Notes under the pieces: model-generated | Seen by the model: only the letters and a program-made list of their open reading frames with translations | Told to the model about the DNA's origin: nothing | Database searches by the model: none | Position numbers and translations under genes: made by a program | From: a virus | DNA: 41,056 bases | Virus record (IMG/VR): IMGVR_UViG_3300031758_000173 | Coordinates: 1 to 41,056 of that record | Direction: 5' to 3' (one strand) | Shown here: piece by piece, positions 681-40,682 of the stretch | Layout of the letters: each line of letters starts with the position of its first letter | Numbering within the stretch: the stretch's first letter is position 1

Positions 681-3638
681 ATGGCAGATTTTATATCGGA
701 TTTTGGTTCAGGATTAGCTGGTAACGTTTTACCTACTGGAGATATCTTAAACAGAAAAATAGATTTCCAGAGAGAGAAATTTCTGAAGGGAATTTCATCT
801 ACGAAACACGGAAAGAAAGAAGATCCTACCTACATCTATTTCAAGTTTATGTTCGACTTTGGGAACAATTCCTTAATAGACGAGGAAACCTTTTTAGCCC
901 CTTCCCCGTTATTTAGATCTTATTCAGCTAATGGTGTTGGTAACATTAACGCGGCTGCAGGAGATCTTGAGGCAAGAACATTAGAAGCACTCAGAAGTGG
1001 AAAGAATCCTTCAGATATTACCGGAATATCTAATGATATACAAAATCTTACAAATTCAGGATTTGGAACTTCCCAAGATTATTTTTATGGATCAAAGGGA
1101 AAAATTCCCAGCAGAGCAAATTATGGATTCTTTCCCGCTAACTCCCCTCTTGCCTATATGGGAGCACAACAATTTTTATATCAAAGATCTCAGAAAAGAC
1201 AGCAAATGCTTGAAGCTTTTAAAAGGGGATTAGATTTCGTTAATAAAAATTGTCCATACTACTTCCAAAATGTTAGTGGATTAGATCAGCTTTTAAAAAC
1301 TGATATCAAAAATTACCACAAAAAGGGAAGTATTCCAAAAAGGGCAGGAACTTTAAGCATAGATTGTTTAGAATCAATCGACATGAGAATATTTGGTCTT
1401 TCAGAACTTTATCGAAAGGCTATTTATGACTACACTTACCACAGAGTTATGCTCCCTGAGAATCTCAGAAAGTTCAGAATGTGGCTGATAGTAACTGAGA
1501 TAAGAAATATTCAACTCACATATGGAATCAACGATATTCTGAACCCTTTCCAGATTCCTTCTGTAGCACAAGCAGCTAACTTTTTAGATAGCTTTAATAG
1601 CCAAACTGGTTTGTTGAATAATACAGAAGGACTTTTACAAAGATCTACAAATGCCGAAGATCCGGGAAATGACAAATTCGGATCTTATACTTTAGGACCT
1701 TATGCTTTCATTTACCAATTTGATCAGTGTGAATTTGACTTCGATGAAACATTTCCTTCTTATGCGTCAATTGACAACAAAGGAGGTCAATCAGTCTCCA
1801 CAAAGTTTAAGATACACGTGGGAAGAGTAAGGGATCATAAAATTCAGTTCAATCAGTTAGCAGATGTCATTCAGAAAAACGATAACATCAAAAGCATGGT
1901 TATTTCTGATCTTTGGGAAAACCCTAAGTCAGATTACAATTTTTCAGATTACGCTAACAGCACTGGATTCGGTGATGCTTTTGTGGATCCCGGGGGAAAT
2001 GCAGGACAGTTTGCTGCAGAACTTGCATCTAACTTTATTAACAATACTGTTGCAGATTTAACTAATCAAGGTGTATCCATCGTTCAGGGAGCGTTACTTG
2101 GAAATATTTACGGATTAGGTGGTGTAAATGCAGGACAAGCTTTATCCAGTGTTCAAAGCTTGGTGAGCACTATCCAAGCAGGAGTTCCTAACCCATTCCA
2201 GGACAACACGCCACAAGCTAGAGGACTTGGAGGTCCTACAGAAAGACAATACCCAACAATAAATTCGGATGTGTATCCTGATGTTAACGGACAAGCTGGA
2301 CAAAATCTTGGAAATGTTTTACCCAATTCAGGAGCAGGAACAACCAATCTTCAAGATGATGTTTACAACAACGTTCCTGGAACTGATTTAGGCGCTCCAG
2401 AAAGACAATATCCAACAGTCTCTACAGACGAATATAATAACGTTCCTGGTCCAGATCTTGGAGTTCCACAGAGAGTTTATCCAACAATAAATTCTGATGT
2501 TTACGGAAACGTACCTGGAAATGATTTAGGTGTTCCTGATAGACAATATCCACCAGTAAACTCTGATGAATATGGCGATGTACCTGGATCAGATCTTGGT
2601 GTTCCTCAAAGAGTTTATCCAACTCTTAATGATGATCTTTATAATAATGTACCTGGATCGGATCTTGGCCCGCCACAAAGACTCTATCCAAATGTACAAG
2701 GGAATGATGAATATTCAGATGTCCCCGGTGCAGATTTAGGCGTTCCTTTAAGAGCTTATACAGAACCAAAAGGTGATGTTTATCCGGATGTCCCAGGCAC
2801 AGATCTTGGAGCACCAGAAAGAGCCTATCCTGGCCCTCCTGCAGGTGATGAGTTCAAAGGAGTACCTGGTAAAGATCTGGGTGTTCCTGATAGAGTATAT
2901 TCTGAGCCTACTGGTGACTTATATCCAGGGGTTCCTGGACCCGACTTGGGAGCACCTGATAGGCAATATAAAGTACCTCCACCAAAAGATGAGTACACTG
3001 AAGTTCCTGGTAAAGATTCAGGTCCACTGGGAAGAATTTATGATGAACCTAAGGGTGATGCTTACCCGGGAGTTCCTGGACCTGATTTAGGAGGGACTGA
3101 AAGGGTTTATAATGCTCCTCCTCCTAAAGATGAATACAAAAACGTACCTGGTTCGGAACTTGGTGCACTAGCAAGAGTTTACAAAACTCCAGATGGTGAT
3201 GTTTATCCTGATGTGCCTGGAAAAGACTTAGGAGCACCTACCAGAGAATACAAACCAGTCACACCAAAAGATGAATACACAGGGGTTCCTGGTCGGGATC
3301 TTGGAGGTTTGGGAAGAGTGTACGAATCAGTCAACGATGACTCCTATCCAACTGTTCCAGGAATAGATTTAGGTGCACCAGCAAGAACTTATCCCGGAGC
3401 AAAAGCTCCCGATGAATTCCCTACAGTACCTGGATCATCGCTCTCTGCACCAGAAAGACAATATCCACCAACAAATGAGGACGTTTACGCTAATGTACCT
3501 GGATCTCTCTTAGGAGGATCTGACAGAATTTACCCAAGAGCTTTTGGTAACGCGGAATATAATGTTCCTCCTTCAGCCCCAGTAAACCTTGGAAGAGTTT
3601 ACCCTAAATCAAATAACAATGAAAACCCTAGCATTTAA
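681..3638 (+). CDS. Tail tube/baseplate-hub-like protein with long C-terminal tandem repeat
   Basis: The product has 985 residues. Residues 1-515 form a globular part. It contains a stretch around 260-275 (LPENLRKFRMWLIVTEIRN) and a beta-rich segment around 340-400 (YAFIYQFDQCEFDF, then FKIHVGRV). These look like the tube-fold proteins that cap or start a contractile tail (gp48/gp54/gp19 type), but similarity is too low to name the gene. From residue 514 the sequence becomes Pro/Gly/Asp/Tyr-rich, and from 560 to 957 it is 17 tandem 23/24-residue units followed by a degenerate one. The gene follows the hub-like gene after 9 bases and precedes the gp5-like spike by 16 bases. No Shine-Dalgarno is evident; the start is preceded by an A-rich run. 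The repeat part may form an extended arm. Its function is unknown. Confidence 0.6.
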   Translation: MADFISDFGSGLAGNVLPTGDILNRKIDFQREKFLKGISSTKHGKKEDPTYIYFKFMFDFGNNSLIDEETFLAPSPLFRSYSANGVGNINAAAGDLEARTLEALRSGKNPSDITGISNDIQNLTNSGFGTSQDYFYGSKGKIPSRANYGFFPANSPLAYMGAQQFLYQRSQKRQQMLEAFKRGLDFVNKNCPYYFQNVSGLDQLLKTDIKNYHKKGSIPKRAGTLSIDCLESIDMRIFGLSELYRKAIYDYTYHRVMLPENLRKFRMWLIVTEIRNIQLTYGINDILNPFQIPSVAQAANFLDSFNSQTGLLNNTEGLLQRSTNAEDPGNDKFGSYTLGPYAFIYQFDQCEFDFDETFPSYASIDNKGGQSVSTKFKIHVGRVRDHKIQFNQLADVIQKNDNIKSMVISDLWENPKSDYNFSDYANSTGFGDAFVDPGGNAGQFAAELASNFINNTVADLTNQGVSIVQGALLGNIYGLGGVNAGQALSSVQSLVSTIQAGVPNPFQDNTPQARGLGGPTERQYPTINSDVYPDVNGQAGQNLGNVLPNSGAGTTNLQDDVYNNVPGTDLGAPERQYPTVSTDEYNNVPGPDLGVPQRVYPTINSDVYGNVPGNDLGVPDRQYPPVNSDEYGDVPGSDLGVPQRVYPTLNDDLYNNVPGSDLGPPQRLYPNVQGNDEYSDVPGADLGVPLRAYTEPKGDVYPDVPGTDLGAPERAYPGPPAGDEFKGVPGKDLGVPDRVYSEPTGDLYPGVPGPDLGAPDRQYKVPPPKDEYTEVPGKDSGPLGRIYDEPKGDAYPGVPGPDLGGTERVYNAPPPKDEYKNVPGSELGALARVYKTPDGDVYPDVPGKDLGAPTREYKPVTPKDEYTGVPGRDLGGLGRVYESVNDDSYPTVPGIDLGAPARTYPGAKAPDEFPTVPGSSLSAPERQYPPTNEDVYANVPGSLLGGSDRIYPRAFGNAEYNVPPSAPVNLGRVYPKSNNNENPSI
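2358..3551 (+). repeat. 17 tandem 69/72-bp units coding a 23/24-residue repeat
   Basis: The unit pattern is D-x-Y-x-x-V-P-G-x-D-L-G-x-P-x-R-x-Y plus 5-6 variable residues. Seventeen units cover residues 560-957 of the 985-residue protein. Unit lengths are 23 for units 1-4; from unit 5 onward they alternate 24 and 23. The second position alternates without exception: V/L/A/S in odd units and E in even units. The true period is therefore a 47-residue pair. A degenerate half-unit precedes (from about 2220) and a broken unit follows (to 3638). Codons for the conserved VPG and DLG differ between units, so the array is old and held at protein level. Confidence 0.95.
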
Positions 3639-3654
3639 AATTCTATAATTTAGT

Positions 3655-4530
3655 ATGACACTGATATCAAGAGAACATTTAATTGATAGTAATATTGAAG
3701 TTGCTCACTTTCTAGGTGTTGTAATTGACAACAAAGATCCAGAATTTAAAGGCAGAGCAAAAATTAGGATATTCGGAGTTTATGATGGGGTTGGTGATGA
3801 GGATTTGCCCTGGTCACACCAAAGATTTGATATGAGTTATGGTCTAGGTGGAGGATCTGGAAGAATGTCTGTTCCTAAATTAGGTTCAGTTGTACACGTC
3901 CAATTCAATAATGGCAACTATTACAGTCCAGAATACAAAGCAGTGCAGGAACTTTCTCCAGATCTCATCGATGAAATCAGGGCAAGTTACGATGGAGCTC
4001 ATTCCCTTATTTATGATGGAATCGAGAGATTAAAAATTTATTACACTGTAGAGAAAGGTCTTGTAATCGATCTAAAGGAGTCCAAAATCATCATTCGAAA
4101 CGATAACTCGATATTGATCACTCATGCGGACGATACTTCGTCTATTGAGCTAAAAGGAGGTAAAATCACTAAGTATGCTGACCAAGAGATAGAGAATACT
4201 GCAGTTACTAGAATTAAGCATTCTTCTGAGGAAGTTTGGATGGACGGAAAAACTACCAACCTCGGACATTCCCCGGTTTTCTCAGCGATTTGTGCTGAGC
4301 CTCTTTGGGATTTTCTGAAGAAGTTAGCCATCGCAGTAGATGCTAAACTTCCAGTAACACCTGGTGTAAGTTCCACATTAGCACAAAGCTTTGAACAGCT
4401 TGCAACTAGTCAGACAGTAAGGGTAACAAGGGAAAACTTACCAGACCTTCCTACAGTCCCAGCACAAAATAGCCAACCTGTATCTTTACCTAGTTCTGCT
4501 ACTGGAGGAACAGGAGCAACAGGAGGATAA
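3655..4530 (+). CDS. gp5/VgrG-like baseplate spike protein without lysozyme domain
   Basis: The product has 291 residues. Residues about 15-100 fit the OB-fold of gp5/VgrG/gpV spikes: a strand HFLGVVIDNKDPEFKGRAKI, then a glycine-rich turn, then VPKLGSVVHVQFNNGN. Residues about 115-200 are short alternating strands (KGLVIDL, KIIIRND, SIELKGGKI), consistent with a beta-prism or beta-helix stalk. SPVFSAICAEPLWDFLKKLA near 205-225 resembles the closing segment of spike stalks. A Thr/Gly/Pro/Ser-rich tail follows. The protein should trimerise and sit on the hub as the membrane-piercing tip. T4 gp5 carries a lysozyme domain between OB-fold and stalk; none fits here. No Shine-Dalgarno is seen before the ATG. 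The stop lies 2 bases from the next start. Confidence 0.82.
   Translation: MTLISREHLIDSNIEVAHFLGVVIDNKDPEFKGRAKIRIFGVYDGVGDEDLPWSHQRFDMSYGLGGGSGRMSVPKLGSVVHVQFNNGNYYSPEYKAVQELSPDLIDEIRASYDGAHSLIYDGIERLKIYYTVEKGLVIDLKESKIIIRNDNSILITHADDTSSIELKGGKITKYADQEIENTAVTRIKHSSEEVWMDGKTTNLGHSPVFSAICAEPLWDFLKKLAIAVDAKLPVTPGVSSTLAQSFEQLATSQTVRVTRENLPDLPTVPAQNSQPVSLPSSATGGTGATGG
4521..4526 (+). promoter_or_regulatory. Shine-Dalgarno-like site before the 1749-residue gene
   Basis: AGGAGG lies 6 bases before the ATG at 4533, inside the last codons of the spike gene. It is the best Shine-Dalgarno match seen at a start in this window; most other genes have only A/T-rich leaders. It may also be incidental, because these bases encode a Gly-rich tail (GATGG). 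Confidence 0.5.
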
Positions 4531-4532
4531 CA

Positions 4533-7500
4533 ATGGCATCTGAAAGTATAGAATCAAGAATAGATGATTTACTTGGTCAAGATTTTGAAAATCTTACTAC
4601 TGAGCAAATAGTACAAACAATTACTGGTCAACAAATTGATTTACCTTACGAGGATTTACAATCAGAGGAAGGATTCAATAAAGAACTTGAAAAATCTGAA
4701 AAAGAAGTAGAGGAACTTATTAAAAGTCTTGAGCCAGGACCACCACCTATTCCTCTTTCTAAAATAGAAGACCTGGCGTGTAAATATGAAGGTGATTCTT
4801 TATATTCTCAAATTCTGTTGGAATCATTAAAGACTGAAAACAGGGACTTATACGAAGAACTCAAAAACTCTGGTAGTTTAGACGAAAAGACCTTTATAGT
4901 GGATGATTTGGGCGTGCAAACAAATATTCCAACTTTCAAAAAAGAACGGGATATTTCTTCAACAGGTATTGTGAAATTTCTTGGACAAAAGGACCCCAAA
5001 TTTTTAGAGAAGACAAACGAATCTTTGTTCGACAATCTTGATCCTCTAGTACTTGGAAAACCCTCAAATTCAGGTGCAAAGAAAAAAAGAGAGCTCAATA
5101 TTCTTGGATACAAAATTCCTTTGGAATTTATAATGTCAGGTAAAAGAGTTGTCCATGTTAAACTTGGAGGACCTTCGATTACAAATGACCAAGCCCTCAG
5201 TGATATTAATAGAGTTCTAGGAGATCAGCTTAAAAATTCTAAAAAATGTGATTTTAAAGATCTGGATTTAAACGGAGATGCTGATAATGATTCAGAGAAT
5301 GATCCAGAAAATGATTCAAGGGAAGGATCAGGTTTGGAATTCGACAGTGATGGAAACTTTTCAGGACTGGGAAGATTCGCATCAAATCGACAAGATGGAT
5401 ATGATGCTAATTTTTTTCCGGATGGAGATGATCCTATCATTAATGATGATTGCGATCCAGGCCTTCCTGAAGATCCAATTACTGGAGACATCATATCAAC
5501 CAAATCTGATGTTGAAGAGATATCTGGAGAATTCTGCGATCCACCTGCCTTTGACTTCTCTGGAATAAATGACTTGACAGGATCCAATGACTTGACAGGA
5601 TCCAATGTTGATCAGGAGGATCCACCAGCAGCTAATGTAGATGTTGATGCAATCCAAGCATGTATAGACTCTGCATTAGAAAAGTCTAACAAAATAGATA
5701 AAAAAAATAAGGAAACAGCTCGTTGGCAAGTTATAGAAAGATTTCTAGAGGAAATTCTTTATCACTATGAAATCATATTCGAATACCAAAAGTCTTTGCA
5801 AGATGCCTGGCAATTAAGATTTCCGTTTTCGAATGGAGGATCTCTTAGTGATTACGAACTTGGAATTTCAATTTTAACCCTTACTGACCAAGAACCAATT
5901 CTGGAACAACAAGTACAGCAAGAAGTTACTGATATAGAAAACGTTTATAATCTCTTCCTTTCTAATAATCCAGTTTTCACGCGAAAACTGTTCGACCTTT
6001 CCTTTGCTGATACTGAACTTGAAAGGAAAGACCTAAAGGACTTATTTAAAGAAAATATCGAAGCAGGAAACTCTCCGGTTGCTTTTGATCAATCAAAACA
6101 AGCTTATCGATTGGACGAAGGATTAGCTTCTTTTGAAACTAATATTGAATCGATTAGGAACATACTGGTTAAAAAAGATTTTGTTGACTCTTTAATAAAC
6201 CAAAAAAATGAACTCACAGCACTTAAAAATGCTAATATCGAAACACTACAATCAAGAACTGGAAGAGATTTAGACCTTAATGATATAGAAGCTGCGCTCA
6301 TAGGAACATCAGGTGATTCAGGAGATCTATATGGACAATCTAGTGCTCAACTTGAACGTAATGAGAGGGTTTTCTCTGCATATTCTAGCAGTAACGAGGA
6401 ATATGCCACAGATGGATACCCTTTTATAAACAAGATCCAAGAATTTTCTGTTCGATTTGCAAGACCAGAATTTAACAGGGCCAGGGCTGAACTTCAATTT
6501 AAGGTGTCTTTCATGTCTGATCTAGGAGATCCTTTACCTTATAAGAATGTCAAAAAACCTGGTAAAATTTCTATGACTGGGGAGCCATCAAATCCTTTGC
6601 AGGAAGTTCCTGAACCAGACCAAGAAAAAATCAAACTAGGAAACGAACACGCAGGTAATGGTGGTTTATTAGCTGAATATTCCACGGAATATTTGGCTTC
6701 TTACCAATTCTTAGAAATTGTGAACCTTAAAACTGGATTTCCTGATGTTGGAGATTTTTTCGGATTTTTTGAAGATGTATTGAATACGAATAAATCCAAA
6801 CAGACTATCATAAACCAGATTAACGAGGACAGGGGAATTCTTTATGGTGAGCTTATTGAAAAATCTGCCTCAAATTGGCTTTTCTTTTCTCCACAGGAAA
6901 GAGGAGATAACGATGCTAGGAATCCAAGCAAGCTTAGACCTGGTACTTTTACTGCAGATGGCGAACCTAATGAAGTTTTCACAGATTTCTATGGAAACTT
7001 TAAACCTAAATGGGATGCTAAATACCAACAAAACAAACAGGTTTATGTCGAGCCTAAACTCAATGAAATAAAAGGATTAGCAAGACAGGCTGGAAATGCA
7101 CTAGGAAACACTTTGCCTTTATTAGATGTTATCGGAATTAGAATATTTGAAAATTTTACTAACATCAAAGAAAAGATAGAGCAAATTGAAGAACTGATGC
7201 TCATTGCAGCACAGAAAAGAACTGAAAACGAGCAATCCCTTACTCCTGAAGCTTTGGATAAGGAGTTTTCTGATCTTAAATGTGCGGGTGCTGGTGGTGC
7301 TGGAGATGGCGATGGAGGAAACGTTGATAACGGAAATTCAGTTAATTGTCCACCGCAATGCTGTGGTCCAGCTGGATCGGATTTTAAATATGCTAATTAT
7401 CTAACATCGTCCCCACCTAGTTCGGACTGTCCAACTATATTTCAAAGATGTTGGTGGAAACAGTTTTGTAAAGATGTAACTAAAGTTGGGTTACTGCCGT

Positions 7501-9782
7501 ATCCTAATGGATTGCCTCCAATTGAAAAAACTAGTTTCTTTCTTTCTGGAGGACCATCAGTGAGACTTGGTTTAAAATATTGGCCGGTTGGTTATTTACC
7601 ACCTGCTTTTATTCCTATTCCTGTACCTAATCCTGTGGACGGACAGCCTTTTATTAGGATCCCTTTGCCTATGATATGGACAATAGTAGATCCTATTATT
7701 ATTCCACTTCCACTTAATTTAGGAGTAATCGTAATTTTCATTCCATTTATTGGAGGTTTTATGCCTACTCCTCTAGTGTACTTAAAGGAGTTTATAACTG
7801 GAAGTTCTTTATTCTTAACAGGAATCAGAGGTCCAAGATTTATCCCAAGAAAATCTGATCCTGAACTTAAAGACCCTCTTGAAAAAATCAAGCAGATTCT
7901 TTCTTTTGGTATTCCTGATAAACTTATTCCACTCCCAGGTTTTGGACAAGATGACGTGGATTCTCCAAATAGGATTCTTAGTGATCTTCAAACTAATCTG
8001 ACAAAAATTTTTGACAGTGTTCCTCCTCCTGGTAATATTGAAGCTTTAAGGGAAGCACAACAAAGAGAAATAGACCTTAAGAATTCGATTTTATCAAAAA
8101 GGAAAGAGTATGACAAAAAAGCAGCACTGCTGGACGTTCCTCAGCCAAACGTGGATGAAGAAAGAGAGCAGTTGGAATTAATAATTGCACAAAGGAAGGA
8201 AACTCTTAAAACTGTAATAAAGGATTATTTAAAAACAGGGATACCTAATCCTAAATCCATTTATTACCCACAGGATAAAGACAAGCTTAAAATCGACGTT
8301 CCTGGAATAGTTAAGTCTTTGAGAATTCTTAAGGATATGAAAGCTAGTTTTGTACCGTTAAAGTGTGGGGACAGTATTAACTTCAAAGACGAAATGAGGG
8401 AGGTTCTTAAATTAATCAAAGTACCTTCTCCACCCAAATATATTTTGGACAACTTAAACGTTTCGAATCCGAATAAAATTTTCTTGAGATTAGATAAGGA
8501 TCCAAGAACTATGGAAAAGGAAGAATTTGAAGATCTAGTTAAAGAAATTAGATCAGCATCTCTTGCAATAACCCATATTATACTAAAGGGAAACAAATTC
8601 TCGGTAATTAAAAAAGTTAGAAAGGGAGCATTTTCAATAATTGATGATTGTGAAAAACAAGGACCTTTTGTGTTTCCTCCTGTTCAAGTTTCAAATATTG
8701 CACCTGTTCCTCTCAAAATTATTAAAATTAAAAATCCTCTTCTTACTGCGATGTACCTAAGGATTATGGAGGGTATGTCTAAAATAATATATTCAAGAGA
8801 GGACTTCTCAAGATATGTTAGGTATGATGGAGAAAATCCAATTCTAGTTATAAGAGTTAAGGATTTAAAAAAATTAATATCGAAAAAATTAGGACTTTCT
8901 AGAAGGGGTCCATTTGATCCCGAAAGACCTCTGGACCTTGAAGAACCTTTAGTTTCTGATTTTCCGCATCCCGAAGGTCCGTATTGTTGCTTGGAATCAC
9001 TTAATGGAGGTTTTGGTAATGCTATCTCAGCTTTTGAAATCCCTACAGTTTTCCCTCCCAAACAAGATCAAGTTTCACAAACACAAGGTTTAGGTGGAAT
9101 AATTCAGGTAACTATACCTGGTACTATAATTAAGAATTTTATTATTGAAACAGTAACATCCTTATTAGATGGAGGTTTATTAGAGCAACTGCTTCCTGAA
9201 ATTGATAATATAGATTCTCCTAAGTTTACAAATTTAAATCCGCAGGATATTCAGAAAATAGCTAGGAATTTAGTTAGAGAGAGTTTAAATCCAGAGTCTC
9301 CAAATATCCCTGATTTTTTAAATCTGACACAAATTCCAGTTATACCAAAAGCTCGACCTACCGACATGATAGAACAAGCCCTAATTGGAATGGGTGCACC
9401 CCCTCCTGCAAGAATAGTTTACAGCTTATTCTGGAAATACTTTAAGGGTTTGCCAAAATCCCCACTACTTGGAAATATAGTAAATCCTGCAGTTGAATTG
9501 TCTTCGAATATACTTACCAAAATTCCATGGCCACTTACAGTATTATTAGGAAGAAATGTTATAAACTTAATTAATCCAATCATCTTATCAGATGACCATC
9601 CCTCATGGAGAAGAATGAGCCTTAAAAACGCTTATTATGTTGTCTATATCGATGAATTTTTAAGAAGTGCAGCTGATGTTTCTGGACTATTTAAATTCTT
9701 CTTAGGTGCAGCTGATCCAGTTTATCCAATTCCTGAACTCCCTTCCGAATTACAAAAAGCATTTAATGTAAAAAAATATTAA
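4533..9782 (+). CDS. Giant virion protein of the hub region (1749 aa), hydrophobic and Cys-rich segments
   Basis: No named family is recognised. Residues about 45-70 are charged and helical. Residues 243-265 are an Asp/Asn/Glu run (DLDLNGDADNDSENDPEND) like Ca-binding loops. Residues about 380-660 look largely alpha-helical. Residues about 935-990 hold a cysteine cluster (CPPQCC, CPTIFQRCWWKQFC). Residues about 1010-1090 are very hydrophobic and proline-rich (FIPIPVPNP, IWTIVDPIIIPLPLNLGVIV, FIPFIGGF). Residues about 1170-1215 look coiled-coil. The ATG has an AGGAGG 6 bases upstream and lies 2 bases after the spike stop. Position next to the spike suggests a hub, tail-lumen or tip component that meets the host envelope. 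A tape measure is possible, but the composition is unusual for one. Function is inferred from context only. Confidence 0.6.
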   Translation: MASESIESRIDDLLGQDFENLTTEQIVQTITGQQIDLPYEDLQSEEGFNKELEKSEKEVEELIKSLEPGPPPIPLSKIEDLACKYEGDSLYSQILLESLKTENRDLYEELKNSGSLDEKTFIVDDLGVQTNIPTFKKERDISSTGIVKFLGQKDPKFLEKTNESLFDNLDPLVLGKPSNSGAKKKRELNILGYKIPLEFIMSGKRVVHVKLGGPSITNDQALSDINRVLGDQLKNSKKCDFKDLDLNGDADNDSENDPENDSREGSGLEFDSDGNFSGLGRFASNRQDGYDANFFPDGDDPIINDDCDPGLPEDPITGDIISTKSDVEEISGEFCDPPAFDFSGINDLTGSNDLTGSNVDQEDPPAANVDVDAIQACIDSALEKSNKIDKKNKETARWQVIERFLEEILYHYEIIFEYQKSLQDAWQLRFPFSNGGSLSDYELGISILTLTDQEPILEQQVQQEVTDIENVYNLFLSNNPVFTRKLFDLSFADTELERKDLKDLFKENIEAGNSPVAFDQSKQAYRLDEGLASFETNIESIRNILVKKDFVDSLINQKNELTALKNANIETLQSRTGRDLDLNDIEAALIGTSGDSGDLYGQSSAQLERNERVFSAYSSSNEEYATDGYPFINKIQEFSVRFARPEFNRARAELQFKVSFMSDLGDPLPYKNVKKPGKISMTGEPSNPLQEVPEPDQEKIKLGNEHAGNGGLLAEYSTEYLASYQFLEIVNLKTGFPDVGDFFGFFEDVLNTNKSKQTIINQINEDRGILYGELIEKSASNWLFFSPQERGDNDARNPSKLRPGTFTADGEPNEVFTDFYGNFKPKWDAKYQQNKQVYVEPKLNEIKGLARQAGNALGNTLPLLDVIGIRIFENFTNIKEKIEQIEELMLIAAQKRTENEQSLTPEALDKEFSDLKCAGAGGAGDGDGGNVDNGNSVNCPPQCCGPAGSDFKYANYLTSSPPSSDCPTIFQRCWWKQFCKDVTKVGLLPYPNGLPPIEKTSFFLSGGPSVRLGLKYWPVGYLPPAFIPIPVPNPVDGQPFIRIPLPMIWTIVDPIIIPLPLNLGVIVIFIPFIGGFMPTPLVYLKEFITGSSLFLTGIRGPRFIPRKSDPELKDPLEKIKQILSFGIPDKLIPLPGFGQDDVDSPNRILSDLQTNLTKIFDSVPPPGNIEALREAQQREIDLKNSILSKRKEYDKKAALLDVPQPNVDEEREQLELIIAQRKETLKTVIKDYLKTGIPNPKSIYYPQDKDKLKIDVPGIVKSLRILKDMKASFVPLKCGDSINFKDEMREVLKLIKVPSPPKYILDNLNVSNPNKIFLRLDKDPRTMEKEEFEDLVKEIRSASLAITHIILKGNKFSVIKKVRKGAFSIIDDCEKQGPFVFPPVQVSNIAPVPLKIIKIKNPLLTAMYLRIMEGMSKIIYSREDFSRYVRYDGENPILVIRVKDLKKLISKKLGLSRRGPFDPERPLDLEEPLVSDFPHPEGPYCCLESLNGGFGNAISAFEIPTVFPPKQDQVSQTQGLGGIIQVTIPGTIIKNFIIETVTSLLDGGLLEQLLPEIDNIDSPKFTNLNPQDIQKIARNLVRESLNPESPNIPDFLNLTQIPVIPKARPTDMIEQALIGMGAPPPARIVYSLFWKYFKGLPKSPLLGNIVNPAVELSSNILTKIPWPLTVLLGRNVINLINPIILSDDHPSWRRMSLKNAYYVVYIDEFLRSAADVSGLFKFFLGAADPVYPIPELPSELQKAFNVKKY
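5568..5603 (+). repeat. Exact 18-bp direct duplication (2 copies)
   Basis: The 18-mer AATGACTTGACAGGATCC occurs twice back to back (5568-5585 and 5586-5603) and encodes NDLTGS twice within the acidic N-terminal third of the 1749-residue protein. The copies are identical in every base, so the duplication is probably recent. Confidence 0.95.
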
Positions 9783-9785
9783 AAA

Positions 9786-9807
9786 AATTGGAAATTTAAA
9801 TCCAATT
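9786..9807. other. Short inverted repeat after the 1749-residue gene
   Basis: AATTGGA (9786-9792) and TCCAATT (9801-9807) can pair around an 8-base AATTTAAA loop, just after the stop at 9782. No T-run follows on the plus strand, so it is not a classical intrinsic terminator in that direction. It could protect a 3' end or attenuate read-through into the S1 gene. The rest of 9783-9840 is A-rich leader with no TATATAA-like element. Confidence 0.35.
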
Positions 9808-9840
9808 ATCTACTAAAAAAATCAACAAACCAAAAAATTA

Positions 9841-10950
9841 ATGAAAAGGAACAATTACACGTACTTCGATTACGATGAAAGTGAAAGAGATGTACTAGAA
9901 AAACTATACGAGAAATCATTACCACAGGATATCAACCAAACAGAAGGTAAGGATTTAAAAAATAACTCCTCAACTAGAGTTATTATTAGCAGATACGACA
10001 CAGAAAAAGGCATAGCTCTTGGGGAGACTCAGTTTGGTCAAAGCATTGTTATCGATACAAACAAAGAACAAAAAAGTCTTACGAAATTAGGATATCCTTT
10101 GATCGAAATGTCAGAGGGACAGGTTTTAGAAGTTGTTGTACATAAAGATCCTTCAGGTGCTTTTTATGGTTCTGTTTCAGCAGGATACGAAAAAGCTCTT
10201 AAGTCTGAACTTCATAGAGCAATCAAGGATGATAATTGTGCTTTCAAAGTTAAAGTAAAAGAAGTTTGTAACGGTGGATTTATGGTCGATCTTTCAGGAA
10301 TTCAATGTTTCTTACCCGGAAGCTTAGCTGCTGCAAACAGAATCATGAATTTTGCAGATTATGTTGGAAAAGAACTCACTGTAATGGTTGAGATTTATGA
10401 TCAGAAAAGAGACATTTTCGTAGTATCATTTAAAAAGTACTTGAGAAAAATTATTGACGGGGAGGTTCAAAAACTTTCTTTCTCTAACAAGTATGATGGT
10501 ATAGTTACAGGTGCTTCTGGTAACGGTGTGTTTGTTGAATGGGATGAAATATTCACTGGTATTATTCCTTTTGACGAAGCTAACTCTGCTAAACTCCAAA
10601 GTCTGAAGACTGGAGACCCCGTAACTTTCTTTGTAACTGACATTAAGAATCCACAAAGGATTACTCTATCGGTTACTGAGCCAAACGAGAAACTTAAAAG
10701 CATTCAGGAGCTTAAAGATTCTTCTTCTGAAGTAGTTGGGGATGACACACAGCTTAAAACTTATAAAGCTGAAATCACAAAAATCAAGACTTTCGGTGCT
10801 TTTGTTAAGCTAGAAAATGGTCTCAATGGATTGATCGAAAGAGAAAGATTAATGAAGTCAATTAAAGAGTATGAGGTTGGTCAATTTGTGAACTGCTCGG
10901 TTTCGAACGTTGACTTATCCTCCTTCAAAATACAATTAGCGGAGGTTTAA
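9841..10950 (+). CDS. Phage-encoded ribosomal protein S1-like RNA-binding protein
   Basis: The product has 369 residues and up to four S1 (OB-fold) domains. Residues about 45-115 form a divergent one. Residues 134-198 (FKVKVKEVCNGGFMVDLSG, CFLPGSL), 217-280 (YDGIVTGASGNGVFVEW, GIIPFDE) and 306-369 (YKAEITKIKTFGAFVKLENG, LNGLIERERL) are clear. S1 domains bind single-stranded RNA; in bacterial S1 they bring mRNA to the 30S subunit. The bacterial protein usually has six domains, so this is a shorter version. The gene has its own A-rich leader and is followed by a strong terminator, so it can be expressed as a unit. It may bias host ribosomes toward phage mRNA, or regulate particular transcripts. 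It lies among structural genes but has no virion features. Confidence 0.93.
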   Translation: MKRNNYTYFDYDESERDVLEKLYEKSLPQDINQTEGKDLKNNSSTRVIISRYDTEKGIALGETQFGQSIVIDTNKEQKSLTKLGYPLIEMSEGQVLEVVVHKDPSGAFYGSVSAGYEKALKSELHRAIKDDNCAFKVKVKEVCNGGFMVDLSGIQCFLPGSLAAANRIMNFADYVGKELTVMVEIYDQKRDIFVVSFKKYLRKIIDGEVQKLSFSNKYDGIVTGASGNGVFVEWDEIFTGIIPFDEANSAKLQSLKTGDPVTFFVTDIKNPQRITLSVTEPNEKLKSIQELKDSSSEVVGDDTQLKTYKAEITKIKTFGAFVKLENGLNGLIERERLMKSIKEYEVGQFVNCSVSNVDLSSFKIQLAEV

Positions 10951-13302: not shown

Positions 13303-14277
13303 TTATATAATTCTCAAATTCCCTTTAGCGTCGAAGATCCAGAATTCAAAATTGATTTTTTTTGCTAATACAGCATCCTTTTTTTCTAGATTTTCTGTTA
13401 AATTACATTCATAGGTATATTCAGATTTTACCTCTATAATCTTATTTTCCGTTTTTATAAAGATGTCAGGAAAATAGATTCTATCTTTACTATACTCTAT
13501 TTTTCCAGTTTCTTGAGCAATCTCAGAATCCTCTATTATTATATTTGCTTCATCGTGTATTTTTAATAATAGATCTATAGCTAAATTCTCATATCCTTGT
13601 ATCCTTACTTTCTTTCCTGACTGAAAGATATAATCTTTGTATTGAAACGATTTCCTAGAATATTCCTCATATTTTATTGGATCTTTTAGTCTATGAGAAT
13701 ACCCATATTTTTCTACATTTGTTTTTTTAATTTTATCCTGAGTTGATTCTAATTTTGTTGGGTGCACCCCGTATTTCTTTTCGAATGTTTTCTGAGTTTT
13801 AAACTTAAATTCTTCCGTTGATGTGTAATATTTTGCCCCATATTTTTCTATATTATTTTTCTCGAATTTTTCTCTATATCCTTCTATTTCCCATACATTT
13901 TTAGTCCCGTATTTTTCAATTAATTTTTCTCTCCCTTTATCCAAATTATATTTTTTATTACATTGATCTTTACAGCAAGTTCCACAATAATTAGCGTCTC
14001 TTTTGTTATATTGGTTTATTGAAAATTTATTAGTAAATGAGAATTTTTTGTGTTCATCACAATATGGGCATTTTTCGATGTCCATTATGTTAAACCACAA
14101 ATGATAGAATCTTTGTGATAAACTTATATCCTGATATACTTGATCCAAAAATTCCGTTTCCTTTATTGTTTCTTCTAATAAATTTGGATCCCTTTTAATA
14201 ATTGATATTACTTGTCCAAAAGCTTGCCCTTTAAAATCTCTTTTTTTAGTTTCCTCTATAAAATTGTGTATGCCCAT
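13303..14277 (-). CDS. Homing-endonuclease-like protein (Vsr/PD-(D/E)xK-type nuclease with DNA-binding repeats)
   Basis: The product has 324 residues. Cysteines form a putative zinc site: CPYC (70-73) plus C98, C101/C102 and C106. Four KYG-containing helical units (KYG at 122, 145, 168 and 190; spacing 23, 23, 22) match the short DNA-binding modules of large-phage homing endonucleases. The C-terminal part has a nuclease core: GYENLAID (228-235), YFPDIFI (268-274) and KIIEVKS (279-285), giving a D271...E282-x-K284 set. Such enzymes cut a target lacking their own gene and are copied in during repair. The gene is alone on the minus strand between plus-strand structural genes and its stop lies 20 bases from that of the 12504 gene, typical for a free-standing mobile gene. 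All core residues are present, so it is probably active. Confidence 0.85.
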   Translation of the reverse strand: MGIHNFIEETKKRDFKGQAFGQVISIIKRDPNLLEETIKETEFLDQVYQDISLSQRFYHLWFNIMDIEKCPYCDEHKKFSFTNKFSINQYNKRDANYCGTCCKDQCNKKYNLDKGREKLIEKYGTKNVWEIEGYREKFEKNNIEKYGAKYYTSTEEFKFKTQKTFEKKYGVHPTKLESTQDKIKKTNVEKYGYSHRLKDPIKYEEYSRKSFQYKDYIFQSGKKVRIQGYENLAIDLLLKIHDEANIIIEDSEIAQETGKIEYSKDRIYFPDIFIKTENKIIEVKSEYTYECNLTENLEKKDAVLAKKINFEFWIFDAKGNLRII

Positions 14278-37751: not shown

Positions 37752-40682
37752 ATGCCCCAAATAAACGTATTAAATATATTACAAGGCGATAATCAATCAA
37801 CCATAGTTGATAAGATTAATTACAACTTTGATCAGATACTAAGTGCAGGTGGAGGCCCTCAGGGACAAAAAGGATCTGCTGGAGCCACTGGTCCAGTTGG
37901 ACCACAGGGACCGCAAGGGGTTCAAGGCCTCCAAGGACCATCTGGAAGCAAATGGTTTGTTCAAGATGTCACACCAGCCCTTGGATCAATATCAGGTTCT
38001 AATCCTTTCCTTTTCCCAACATTAGGGGATTATTGGCTCGATCCAGCATCTTCTGACCAAGACATATATGTTTACACTTCCACCGGGTGGGCAGATACTG
38101 GATTTGGATTAGCAGCAGGGGATATTTTTCAGAATCTTGCTCCGATCTCAATAGCAGGGGGAGGCACACAGAATGCTATAATGATAGCAGGTGCTTCAAA
38201 TGATTCAACAGTGGTTTTATCGGATTCTACTATTTCTGACTATACTCCTGCAGGAACGCCTATACAAAATTTAAATTTCGAGAATTCTAAACTTAAAATT
38301 TCAACTAAGGATAGTAGAACAAAACTTATAAGTTTTAGTCACGCAGAATTCGATGTCGATCCAGGGGGATCTGCAAGTTCAAATAGCAATTATAATCCAT
38401 ATTTCCAATGGAGAACTTCAGTTCCTGGACCCAAGGGATACTGGGATATAGAATTCACAAATCCTACAGGATCTATTTTAATAAAATCTCCGGGTACTGT
38501 TCTAAATAGTGGAATTAATTTAAGTTCAAGTGCTGAAATTTCTGCTGTTTCATCTGCTGATAATGTACTTCTAAGCACAGCATCTTCAAACAAAGGAACT
38601 TTAGTAGATGCTTCCTCAGGAACATATGGATTCTTCGAGGTCAGTGATAATGGGGGGACTAACCAGTCATATCCTTTCCTGTACGTAAACTCTACTGGAT
38701 TAGGACTTGGTATAGGTACGGGGGGATTTAAGCTCACAGGTGATGATCGTAGAAGACTATCAGTACTTGGTAATGTAAGTGTTTCCACAACAGTTTCTGA
38801 ACACAATGCAGCTTTATTTACGGGGAACGTGAATTTCCCTTTAAATCACAATAAAGGATCTTTTTATGTCCAAGGTCATGCAGGATTTGGCAGATTAAAT
38901 CCTACTGGATACGAGGGTGGTTCTGTTAATATAACAGGGCCTAATGAATTACTTGGTTTATATCCGCAACTTTGGGTCACATCTCCTAATTATGGACCAG
39001 CTTTACAAATAAAAACATTAGGGGGATCAACTTTCACCAGCAGATCAGTTATTGGTGACGGAACAATAGATTTTAATTTTATCACATCCTCCACTCAAAG
39101 AGTTTCTGGAACTGGTCCTGATTTTACACAGGAATTCTTTTCTAGCGGACACACTTTTACTGCAGGACCTCTTTTAAGTTTTCAACATAAGATTACAGAT
39201 TCTTCAAACACAACAGGAACTGCGAACGTTTTTGCCATAACAACAAACATGAATGCTGGCGTTTACAATAACGCCAATTCTGTTAACAATACAACAATTC
39301 AAACTAGGAATTCTAATCCGCGTTTGATTTTAGAAGCTAATTCTACTGGACAATATGACAGCAACAGAATATCTCTGGGATTTTCTGGTAACAGAACGAT
39401 TGCAACTTATCCTGGACCACAATCACCGGATCCTTGGTATGGAACTACTGTTATTGGTGCAATGTCTGGTTCGGTTCAACCTAAGGGTCTTACTGGTAAT
39501 TTAAGTACTTTTGCTACTTTTCCTAGTCTTTCGCTTATTTCTTTTCAAGGAACATCCGGAGGATGGAACGAGCCAAACCATGCTTTATCAATAGTAGGAG
39601 TCCAAACTATTGGTACTACTGATCCAGTTTCTCTTTTGGGGGGAGCTAAATCAAGTACAGGTCAATTTGGAGCAATTTCTATGCTTAAGATTCACAGAAA
39701 TTTAGGAAACTCCGTTTATGTACCTCCATCTTCTGCTTACTGGCAGGGAATAACTGGAGCGTATCCATTTAACTACCCGAATGGTTTAGAAATTACATCA
39801 TTTAAAAGTCAGGCTGCTGTTCCTGGAAAGGGCAACGAAAACAAAAGCGTTGCGTTGGCAATTGGAGCTACTAAATACACAGCAGCTGAGGATAATGAAC
39901 GAGTAACGTGTCCTGCTACAGGATTCTATGTCTCTGATACTGGAGAAAACGTAGCCATAGGGACTACTATTGATAATGATGCTGTACTTGCAGTTTCTGG
40001 AGCAGCTGCTATTAGCAATGCTATATTAGCTTATGGAGATGTAAATGTAACCGGTGGTAATTTAAATGTTACTAATGGTGATGTGAATGTTACTGGAGGT
40101 GATTTAAATGTAACTGGGAGCATTTCATTTAATATAGACCAAGCTTTCAATTCTACGGCTGAGGGTCCAACAGGATATACTCTGTTTAGACAAAGATCGA
40201 ATGATATTTATTTATATTCTGAGCAGGCTAAAGGTGCAACAACTATAATAAACAGTACGTACATCAGTAGTGGTGGACTGTCTATGTTTAATAACCAAAA
40301 CATTACATTAGCAGGACCTCTCAAAATGATAAGAGATTCACTCGGTTTTAATTGTACTGTTACTGGCATGCCTAGTTCTGTTAGATATCTATCTTCTTTT
40401 AGTAGCGGATCATATACTACTAACACTACTTCTTCGATAACATACCTTGGTCCTTATCAACGGGATGTGATAATTTATGGAATGACTAGTAGCGGAACGT
40501 CTCCATCGACAGACATATATGTAGAGGATATTGATGCTTCCAATTTCTATATCCTAGGCAGAGCAAATGGCGGTGGCAATTCATGGACAGCAATTGTTCC
40601 GGCGGATTGTCAGTTTTACATATTATTGGAGGGTACTGGAAATTACTCATTTAGGGTATGTGAGTTTGGACGTGTATCATGA
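37752..40682 (+). CDS. Collagen-like tail fibre protein (976 aa)
   Basis: The product has 976 residues. The N-terminus has the I-N-x-N-F-type helix (VDKINYNFDQIL, 19-30) shared with the 24647 protein. It is followed by ten collagen Gly-X-Y triplets (residues 35-65; glycines at 35, 38, 41 and so on to 65) that would form a short triple helix. Residues about 70-780 are Ser/Thr/Asn/Gly-rich strands typical of beta-helical fibre shafts. Residues 763-790 carry four copies of a 7-residue repeat. The C-terminal region about 800-976 is beta-rich (YTNTTSSITYLGPYQRDVIIY) and may be the tip or a trimerisation head. It is likely a long tail fibre or side fibre for receptor contact. It starts 8 bases after the hydrolase gene and overlaps the next gene by 4 bases (ATGA). 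Confidence 0.78.
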   Translation: MPQINVLNILQGDNQSTIVDKINYNFDQILSAGGGPQGQKGSAGATGPVGPQGPQGVQGLQGPSGSKWFVQDVTPALGSISGSNPFLFPTLGDYWLDPASSDQDIYVYTSTGWADTGFGLAAGDIFQNLAPISIAGGGTQNAIMIAGASNDSTVVLSDSTISDYTPAGTPIQNLNFENSKLKISTKDSRTKLISFSHAEFDVDPGGSASSNSNYNPYFQWRTSVPGPKGYWDIEFTNPTGSILIKSPGTVLNSGINLSSSAEISAVSSADNVLLSTASSNKGTLVDASSGTYGFFEVSDNGGTNQSYPFLYVNSTGLGLGIGTGGFKLTGDDRRRLSVLGNVSVSTTVSEHNAALFTGNVNFPLNHNKGSFYVQGHAGFGRLNPTGYEGGSVNITGPNELLGLYPQLWVTSPNYGPALQIKTLGGSTFTSRSVIGDGTIDFNFITSSTQRVSGTGPDFTQEFFSSGHTFTAGPLLSFQHKITDSSNTTGTANVFAITTNMNAGVYNNANSVNNTTIQTRNSNPRLILEANSTGQYDSNRISLGFSGNRTIATYPGPQSPDPWYGTTVIGAMSGSVQPKGLTGNLSTFATFPSLSLISFQGTSGGWNEPNHALSIVGVQTIGTTDPVSLLGGAKSSTGQFGAISMLKIHRNLGNSVYVPPSSAYWQGITGAYPFNYPNGLEITSFKSQAAVPGKGNENKSVALAIGATKYTAAEDNERVTCPATGFYVSDTGENVAIGTTIDNDAVLAVSGAAAISNAILAYGDVNVTGGNLNVTNGDVNVTGGDLNVTGSISFNIDQAFNSTAEGPTGYTLFRQRSNDIYLYSEQAKGATTIINSTYISSGGLSMFNNQNITLAGPLKMIRDSLGFNCTVTGMPSSVRYLSSFSSGSYTTNTTSSITYLGPYQRDVIIYGMTSSGTSPSTDIYVEDIDASNFYILGRANGGGNSWTAIVPADCQFYILLEGTGNYSFRVCEFGRVS
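37854..37946 (+). repeat. Collagen-like Gly-X-Y segment (10 triplets)
   Basis: Codons from 37854 to 37946 encode glycine at every third residue from 35 to 65 (eleven Gly) with Pro and Gln frequent at X and Y. This is a short collagen-like triple helix, which fits a trimeric fibre stalk. Confidence 0.92.
40038..40121 (+). repeat. Four tandem 21-bp units in the fibre gene
   Basis: Four units of 21 bases encode DVNVTGG, NLNVTNG, DVNVTGG and DLNVTGS. The pattern x-(V/L)-N-V-T-x-G fits one beta-helix step per unit. The bases have diverged somewhat, so slippage is not very recent. Confidence 0.9.

Follow-up and report, generated by a model that had tools for sequence, protein, structure and literature searches.

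Disordered protein regions that carry repeated short linear motifs are a known general kind, and proteins at the junction between the baseplate and the tail tube are, to our knowledge, compact in known phages. In bacteriophage T4, six copies each of gp48 and gp54 lie at this junction (PMC3004832). Here we describe a protein in which a predicted fold of the tube-junction type has gained a motif array of ~400 residues. It is encoded by the second reading frame of virus record IMGVR_UViG_3300031758_000173 (positions 1 to 41,056), a stretch of 41,056 nucleotides that is hereafter called the window. As in known regions with repeated short linear motifs, the array is tandem, its copy number is variable and its anchor residues are conserved in predicted disorder. 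It differs from them in being carried by a protein with a predicted tail-tube fold and in forming, in one clade, a two-beat higher-order repeat in which units of types A and B alternate. Disordered tails with repeated motifs are known, whereas the placement on a baseplate tube fold and the higher-order repeat are new to us; literature searches confined to open-licence papers listed no description of this array. The features of the protein are as follows.

681-3638, + strand: array protein of 985 amino acids, with a predicted tail-tube fold and a C-terminal repeat tail; homologues found
681-2135, + strand: N-terminal region, with the predicted tail-tube fold at residues ~50-389 (AlphaFold2, VIA-align)
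2097-2111, + strand: LGNIY, residues 473-477, closing a long predicted helix (alignment A5)
2217-2357, + strand: degenerate head of the array, GLGGP.ERQYP ... NLGNV; similar heads occur in relatives
2358-3551, + strand: 17 repeat units of 23 or 24 residues, of alternating types A and B (pattern search; coil in AlphaFold2)
3552-3635, + strand: terminal degenerate half unit, the last 28 residues, with NLGRVYP at 3585-3605

A first-pass annotation of this DNA had reported 17 units of 23 or 24 residues beginning at position 2220 and sharing the motif D-x-Y-x-x-V-P-G-x-D-L-G-x-P-x-R-x-Y. Seventeen units were indeed counted, with starts at residues 560-934 (nucleotides 2358-3480) and the final unit stopping at nucleotide 3551, but position 2220 falls in the degenerate head and the clean units begin only at 2358. 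The search pattern required D or A at position 1, Y or F at position 3 and VPG at positions 6-8; inside this pattern D1 is present in 17/17 units and Y3 in 15/17, the remaining two carrying F. At the unconstrained positions, R16 and Y18 each occur in all 17 units, L11 and G12 in 16, D10 in 14 and P14 in 12, and the motif therefore holds as a consensus but is not invariant. A stricter unit pattern retrieves 16 units, and Tandem Repeats Finder, which is independent of the pattern search, reports periods of 69 and 138 base pairs. The reported alternations were borne out. Residue 2 is Glu in 8/8 even units and 0/9 odd units (V,E,V,E,L,E,V,E,L,E,A,E,V,E,S,E,V), an arrangement that is 1 of 24,310 orderings of the same composition, and the unit lengths (23,23,23,23,24,23,24,...,24) alternate 24/23 from unit 5 onward. 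Residue 17, within R-x-Y, alternates in just 9/16 steps of the window array. Codons differ between units as had been claimed, with unit-to-unit differences of 57% at codon position 3 compared with 27% at position 1 and 29% at position 2.

Relatives were collected by three scans. A scan with the whole protein yielded 30 loci, of which 30/30 carry arrays. An N-terminal profile retrieved 51 loci, comprising 48 close relatives with the array (the 30 contigs of the first scan plus 18 newly read) and the distant loci L087-L089 without it. A pair profile, based on 30 pairs only and blind to the N-terminal half of the protein, confirmed 152 places, the best 80 of which encode 63 distinct proteins with at least 4 units each. 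Every array examined among these best 80 of 152 places belongs to one protein family in one genomic place: a hub-like gene lies upstream in 79/80 array loci and a spike gene downstream in 79/80, with the misses (L156 and L134) at contig ends. The number of repeats, a comparison that the annotation had proposed, varies widely in related phages, with runs of 4 to 17 units. Forty-six representatives were clustered from 79 loci, 21 close relatives and 3 distant relatives (L156, whose 5' end is open, was left out); alignment A5 contains 46 sequences, without L167. Among the array-bearing representatives, identity to the window in the N-terminal region is 31-89%. The annotation had named related phages that lack the array with no structural change as evidence that would count against it. 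This is borne out in part: relatives without the array do exist, and the array is thus an optional elaboration. In the close relatives it is inherited, being present in 48/48.

We found that the two-beat pattern is derived and that the single 23-mer is the basic unit. Unit-to-unit steps, 199 in all, were taken from 28 distinct runs of at least three units found in the window and its relatives. Residue 17 alternates between polar and hydrophobic in 177/199 of these steps (permutation mean 109.1, maximum 134 of 2000 permutations) and residue 2 in 146/199 (permutation mean 98.6, maximum 117). The two alternations are reciprocal, such that residue 2 is mostly hydrophobic and residue 17 polar in A units, with the opposite in B units, and 159/199 junctions join like with like (73 hydrophobic/hydrophobic, 86 polar/polar). 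The main exceptions are L054 and L084, whose second residue is Gln or Glu in most units. In the two-beat clade, 23/28 clean runs have an odd number of units (17, 15, 13, 9, 7 or 5; the runs are not independent of one another), as expected if pairs are gained or lost between fixed ends.

A sister clade, which includes contigs of 218-373 kilobases and whose N-terminal domain is 31-41% identical to that of the window, carries one-beat arrays with the consensus DVYxNVPGSDLGVPDRVYP. Of 160 one-beat units, 88% carry V or A at residue 2 and 85% carry V, I or A at residue 17, and the units within one such array look alike. The earlier proposal that the pair is the heritable unit holds for the window clade, where DNA identity at a lag of two units exceeds that at a lag of one in 26/28 two-beat arrays (29 were listed, one with too few adjacent units). 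It does not hold in general, because the same is true of only 4/23 arrays in the sister clade. On a tree of the N-terminal domain with 58 rows (26 two-beat, 23 one-beat and 9 without an array), the three states require 2 changes. This tree is a quick one with long branches, rooted on PAU by choice, and two of its labels were set by hand: the window was called two-beat by residue 2 (its automatic label was one-beat), and L016, which has only one adjacent step, was set to two-beat; 3 changes were required before this. It omits 29 of 87 rows (near-copies and the L134 fragment), and LR756501 and the Lak-B5 fragment were never included. The family offers a case in which the rise of a higher-order repeat within a protein can be read on a tree.

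The N-terminal region probably is a tail-tube-fold protein that works like gp54 of T4, as judged from predicted models. AlphaFold2 modelling of residues 1-500 on the 46-sequence alignment gave a mean predicted local distance difference test score (pLDDT) of 58, with 221 residues below 50 and block means of 80-92 at residues 161-200, 221-270, 341-360 and 371-380. The full-length model was too poor to be used for fold searches (best E-value against PDB 1.1). With VIA-align, the top match of the model was 9f4a_BQ, a T4 gp54 homologue from a variant of Klebsiella phage KP1 (Z 9.7, 170 residues, root-mean-square deviation 4.7), followed by a T4 baseplate chain (Z 9.5) and by the tube proteins of phiKZ and phiKp24 (Z 8.8); the top matches are tied within 1 Z, and the margin of 9f4a_BQ over the phiKZ and phiKp24 proteins is below 1. 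Z was at least 5 for 83/469 aligned chains; tail tubes, tube initiators and Hcp make up most of the 50 entries listed. The predicted model thus belongs with the Hcp/gp19-like tail-tube fold superfamily. In BFVD, E-values of 3.5e-13 were obtained to the pT24 homologue and to H9NCD2, whose length of 413 residues makes it the probable PAU gp255; entries named as tail tube proteins follow from 2.3e-3. These findings agree with the earlier description of a tail hub or tube kind of protein adjoining a spike, in that a tube fold is predicted and the neighbouring gene encodes the spike.

The predicted N-terminal fold and the adjoining spike gene are shared with T4 gp54 and 9f4a_BQ. In contrast, no sequence similarity to the single T4 gp54 sequence was detected, and gp54, at 320 amino acids, has no room for an array. 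Because the fold match is predicted and no sequence similarity was detected, we regard the protein as gp54-like rather than filing it as gp54. Homologues of the domain were detected by tblastn in five cultured phages, namely PAU gp255, PTm1 ORF-235, pT24 BPT24_163, MaF61 ORF80 and MA9V1_111 (the weakest, from MA9V-1, at E 2e-3). These proteins have ~370-440 amino acids, and the array is absent from all five. The gene immediately downstream of the homologue is one for a baseplate hub or baseplate assembly in both PTm1 and pT24.

What stands in place of the array in array-less relatives was then considered. Among 18 relatives without this array (array-less relatives), 14 end in a short tag that fits N[IVT][YF].{0,3} at the C terminus, whereas 5000 shuffles of the last 40 residues gave 0.10 on average and never more than 2. 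Endings include DLGNVFK, DLGNIYK, NLGNIFE, TLGNIYR, NLGNVYK, DLGNVYN and similar sequences, and the homologues from PTm1, PAU and MA9V-1 end in the tag. This count leaves out L230 (which has an array and lies at a contig end), L292 (whose frame stops early) and a 266-residue Lak-B5 fragment. An internal LGN[IVAL][YF] is present in 11/18 array-less relatives; in the 46 sequences of A5, the L, G, N and Y of LGNIY (residues 473-477) are invariant columns. Three relatives (L088, L308 and L309) are intermediates with one unit-like stretch preceding the tag. The relatives therefore show an apparent path from tag only to one unit, to a one-beat array and to a two-beat array.

By eye, L294, LR756500 and LR756501 carry different repeats in the same C-terminal slot. 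In L294, from an array-less lineage, a tandem repeat of ~19 residues resembling SPSNATKDVGSLGTNDPGQ occupies this slot from position 2501 onward. In LR756501 (L036, positions 6773-10417), a distant homologue of 1215 residues has 14-mers resembling PHPPVSGTIDTSF behind the domain.

We tentatively propose, as the leading explanation though with slightly less than even confidence, that a C-terminal docking peptide of a tube-junction-like protein was amplified into a disordered, multivalent binding tail. The protein would belong to the baseplate core, probably at the junction of hub and tail tube, a placement suggested by its predicted fold and its spike neighbour. A short docking peptide, (L)GN[VI][YF], probably formed the C terminus of its ancestor, which held an internal copy of the same motif; both are seen in most relatives without this array. 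A tandem array of 23-residue units would have developed in one lineage from the sequence separating the two motif copies; in the branch of the window, as comparison of the arrays shows, adjacent units then diverged into an A/B pair that was later copied pairwise. Taken alone, the array is predicted to be mostly disordered: in the full-length, single-chain AlphaFold2 model it is coil throughout, with mean pLDDT of 28-45 in ten-residue blocks. Each unit or unit junction could dock by avidity, either to a repeated site on a conserved virion partner or to neighbouring copies of the protein, and a six-copy ring like that of T4 gp54 would present ~100 units per virion. We prefer a docking tail because array-less relatives are mostly tagged, distant phages retain the anchors, and the slot is occupied by different repeats in different lineages. 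If this explanation is true, a conserved docking site is to be expected in the contractile-tail baseplate.

Several observations weigh against this proposal. The tag is absent from L307, MaF61, pT24 and LR756501, and most array-bearing proteins lack a tag end, finishing instead in ...GRVYP..NEN or ...LGN.KP..KYN.SLG.FNP (the array proteins of L154, L173 and L183 end in ENVYK). Because of these untagged array proteins, the step from tag to unit is drawn from motif resemblance only. A search of ten records with a DNA pattern for LGN[IV]Y points to no docking partner, giving 19 matches (reversed control 8), of which 10 are in the array protein, four in frames of 186-576 amino acids and five in frames of 12-63 amino acids. 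Low pLDDT is no proof of disorder, and a fibre that forms only as an oligomer would look identical. With regard to the fold, a Foldseek search of PDB with the model of residues 1-500 returned no significant E-value; the best match was a mycobacteriophage connector chain (E 0.098), with T4-like baseplate or tail chains at ranks 2-4 and 6. Similarly, hhalign of A5 against single T4 gp54 or gp48 sequences revealed no sequence similarity (probability 0.1% for gp54, where the remote side was one sequence and not a profile).

The array might instead be an elastic or entropic tether, in which Pro-Gly turns and spaced Tyr residues form an extensible linker and only mechanics count. Its composition over 398 residues (Pro 17%, Gly 13%, Tyr 8%, net charge -30), its predicted coil and its variable copy number are what such a linker might show. 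The evidence for selective constraint makes this account unlikely in our view. The ratio of nonsynonymous to synonymous substitution rates (dN/dS) was computed for the part of the protein that starts 40 residues beyond the internal LGN motif and runs to the C terminus. Over pairs that share members, it is 0.03-0.27 in 26/27 (one being undefined), and the pairs whose dS is below 1, 15 in number, give 0.03-0.16. This agrees with the earlier suggestion that selection maintains the protein pattern. When units were counted with a pattern that required G8, a basic residue at position 16 and aromatic residues at 3 and 18, the free anchors D1 and P7 were 97-100% conserved. Anchors conserved under purifying selection are a property of short-linear-motif arrays, and low dN/dS together with near-fixed D1, R16 and Y18 across distant phages seems to be beyond the needs of a spacer, as does the retention of the terminal tag by most array-less relatives. 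Elastin-like polypeptides, which are tandem VPGXG pentamers, were considered and ruled out, since VPG is spaced every 23/24 residues here and not every 5.

Alternatively, the array could fold only as a trimer or hexamer into a rod that single-chain prediction misses. Regular 23/24 spacing, strictly kept anchors and a paired period would suit such a fibre, and oligomer-dependent folds are indeed invisible to single-chain prediction. Nevertheless, relatives tolerate changes in length and breaks between units, and the array resembles no catalogued repeat: it gave nothing below E 0.2 against Pfam, PHROGs and NCBIfam, and only two matches in PDB sequences (E 0.24 and 0.34), where the pair profile found none. 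Searched by itself against 50,697 phage records with the BLAST low-complexity filter on, the array again had no match, even with E-values of up to 10 allowed. We judge a folded fibre to be rather improbable.

A broader version of the docking idea extends the tag to neighbouring genes. Relatives of the array protein, a 201-amino-acid protein and the hub-like protein would share [ND]-[IV]-[YF]-x ends, all docking to a single type of receptor site. Amplification of this end in one lineage would have produced a multivalent belt holding the baseplate or the first sheath rings together. Among 568 background open reading frames from five contigs, the tag pattern has 6 matches, 4 of them in the gene for the 201-amino-acid protein. 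A strict pattern, chosen after the sequences were viewed, matches 6/568, all in 201-amino-acid or hub-like genes, a descriptive count rather than a test; a looser form of it matches 15/568. Homologues of the 201-amino-acid protein have an N[IVT][YF] end in 30/58 distinct sequences, at 60-100% identity to that of the window, and end in AQKNIF[RK]R or near it, while the 28 distant ones lack it. For the hub-like protein the same end is found in 1/129, and close relatives, by eye, often have DI[FY]xK. The motifs searched for were found in none of the 19 other window proteins tested. We saw no genome with all three tags. Moreover, the array protein of the window clade lacks the terminal tag, and in array-less lineages it is the 201-amino-acid and hub-like proteins that lack it. 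We therefore consider such a shared code very doubtful. Tag-like ends do occur in the clade of the window: in L005, the 201-amino-acid protein (3755-4360) ends in ...AQKNIFRR and the hub-like protein (4366-5991) in ...SDIFGK.

The receptor-binding arm suggested in the first-pass annotation, which would contact the host surface, has in its favour a baseplate-type place adjoining the spike gene, repeated aromatic and acidic residues, and an array dN/dS that outside the anchors usually exceeds that of the N-terminal domain, but receptor-binding parts usually diversify, whereas here the motif is kept while the domain of the sister clade has diverged to 31-41% identity. Pfam, PHROGs and NCBIfam recognise no binding domain in the array, and we find this reading highly improbable.

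Two genes flank the array protein in the window.

3-671, + strand: 3' part of the neighbouring gene, which encodes 541 amino acids in contig L005; hub-like by place and by eye (PHROG matches of unknown function, no Pfam match)
3655-4530, + strand: gp5-like spike or baseplate protein with an oligonucleotide/oligosaccharide-binding (OB) domain (phrog_430, PF04717)

The spike protein matches phrog_430, 'baseplate hub subunit and tail lysozyme', at E 1.9e-14, and PF04717 at E 0.0037, which does not reach the cut-off of that model. In L005, which encodes an identical array protein, genes for 617-, 201- and 541-amino-acid proteins precede the array gene in that order. The 617- and 201-amino-acid proteins obtain no firm family name from PHROG or Pfam matches; the latter is LysM-like by eye and matches one baseplate wedge family (E 0.006) and one baseplate hub family (E 0.017) of PHROGs weakly. 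The PF04984 sheath model found none in ten records, its control being positive in only 3/14 genomes. The PF06841 T4 tube model also found none in the ten records, and nothing is concluded from this result because its control was positive nowhere. Overall, the array protein probably belongs to the baseplate in a large group of phages, most of which are uncultured. Among genome_contigs, 124 stretches fit the pattern and 1 was confirmed, a 4.6-kilobase contig from a metagenome bin; because it carries the same array protein, it is probably a phage contig.

Behind the spike gene, positions 4533-9782 encode a 1749-amino-acid protein with no match in PHROGs, Pfam or phage records; its homologues in four related contigs have 1574-1700 amino acids and 46-60% identity. 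The number of units was compared with the length of this large protein as a possible length ruler, and the pairs (17/1749, 6/1700, 5/1696, 8/1693 and 15/1574, n=5) are trendless. Since the identity of the protein as a tape measure is not established, this comparison says nothing on tail length. A homing endonuclease gene (13303-14277, - strand; phrog_3339) lies within the tail gene cluster, and a similar protein, at 34% identity, is present in 1/5 related contigs. Finally, the last gene, which weakly matches a tail fibre, contains a short tandem repeat of 21/42 bases at positions 40033-40117.

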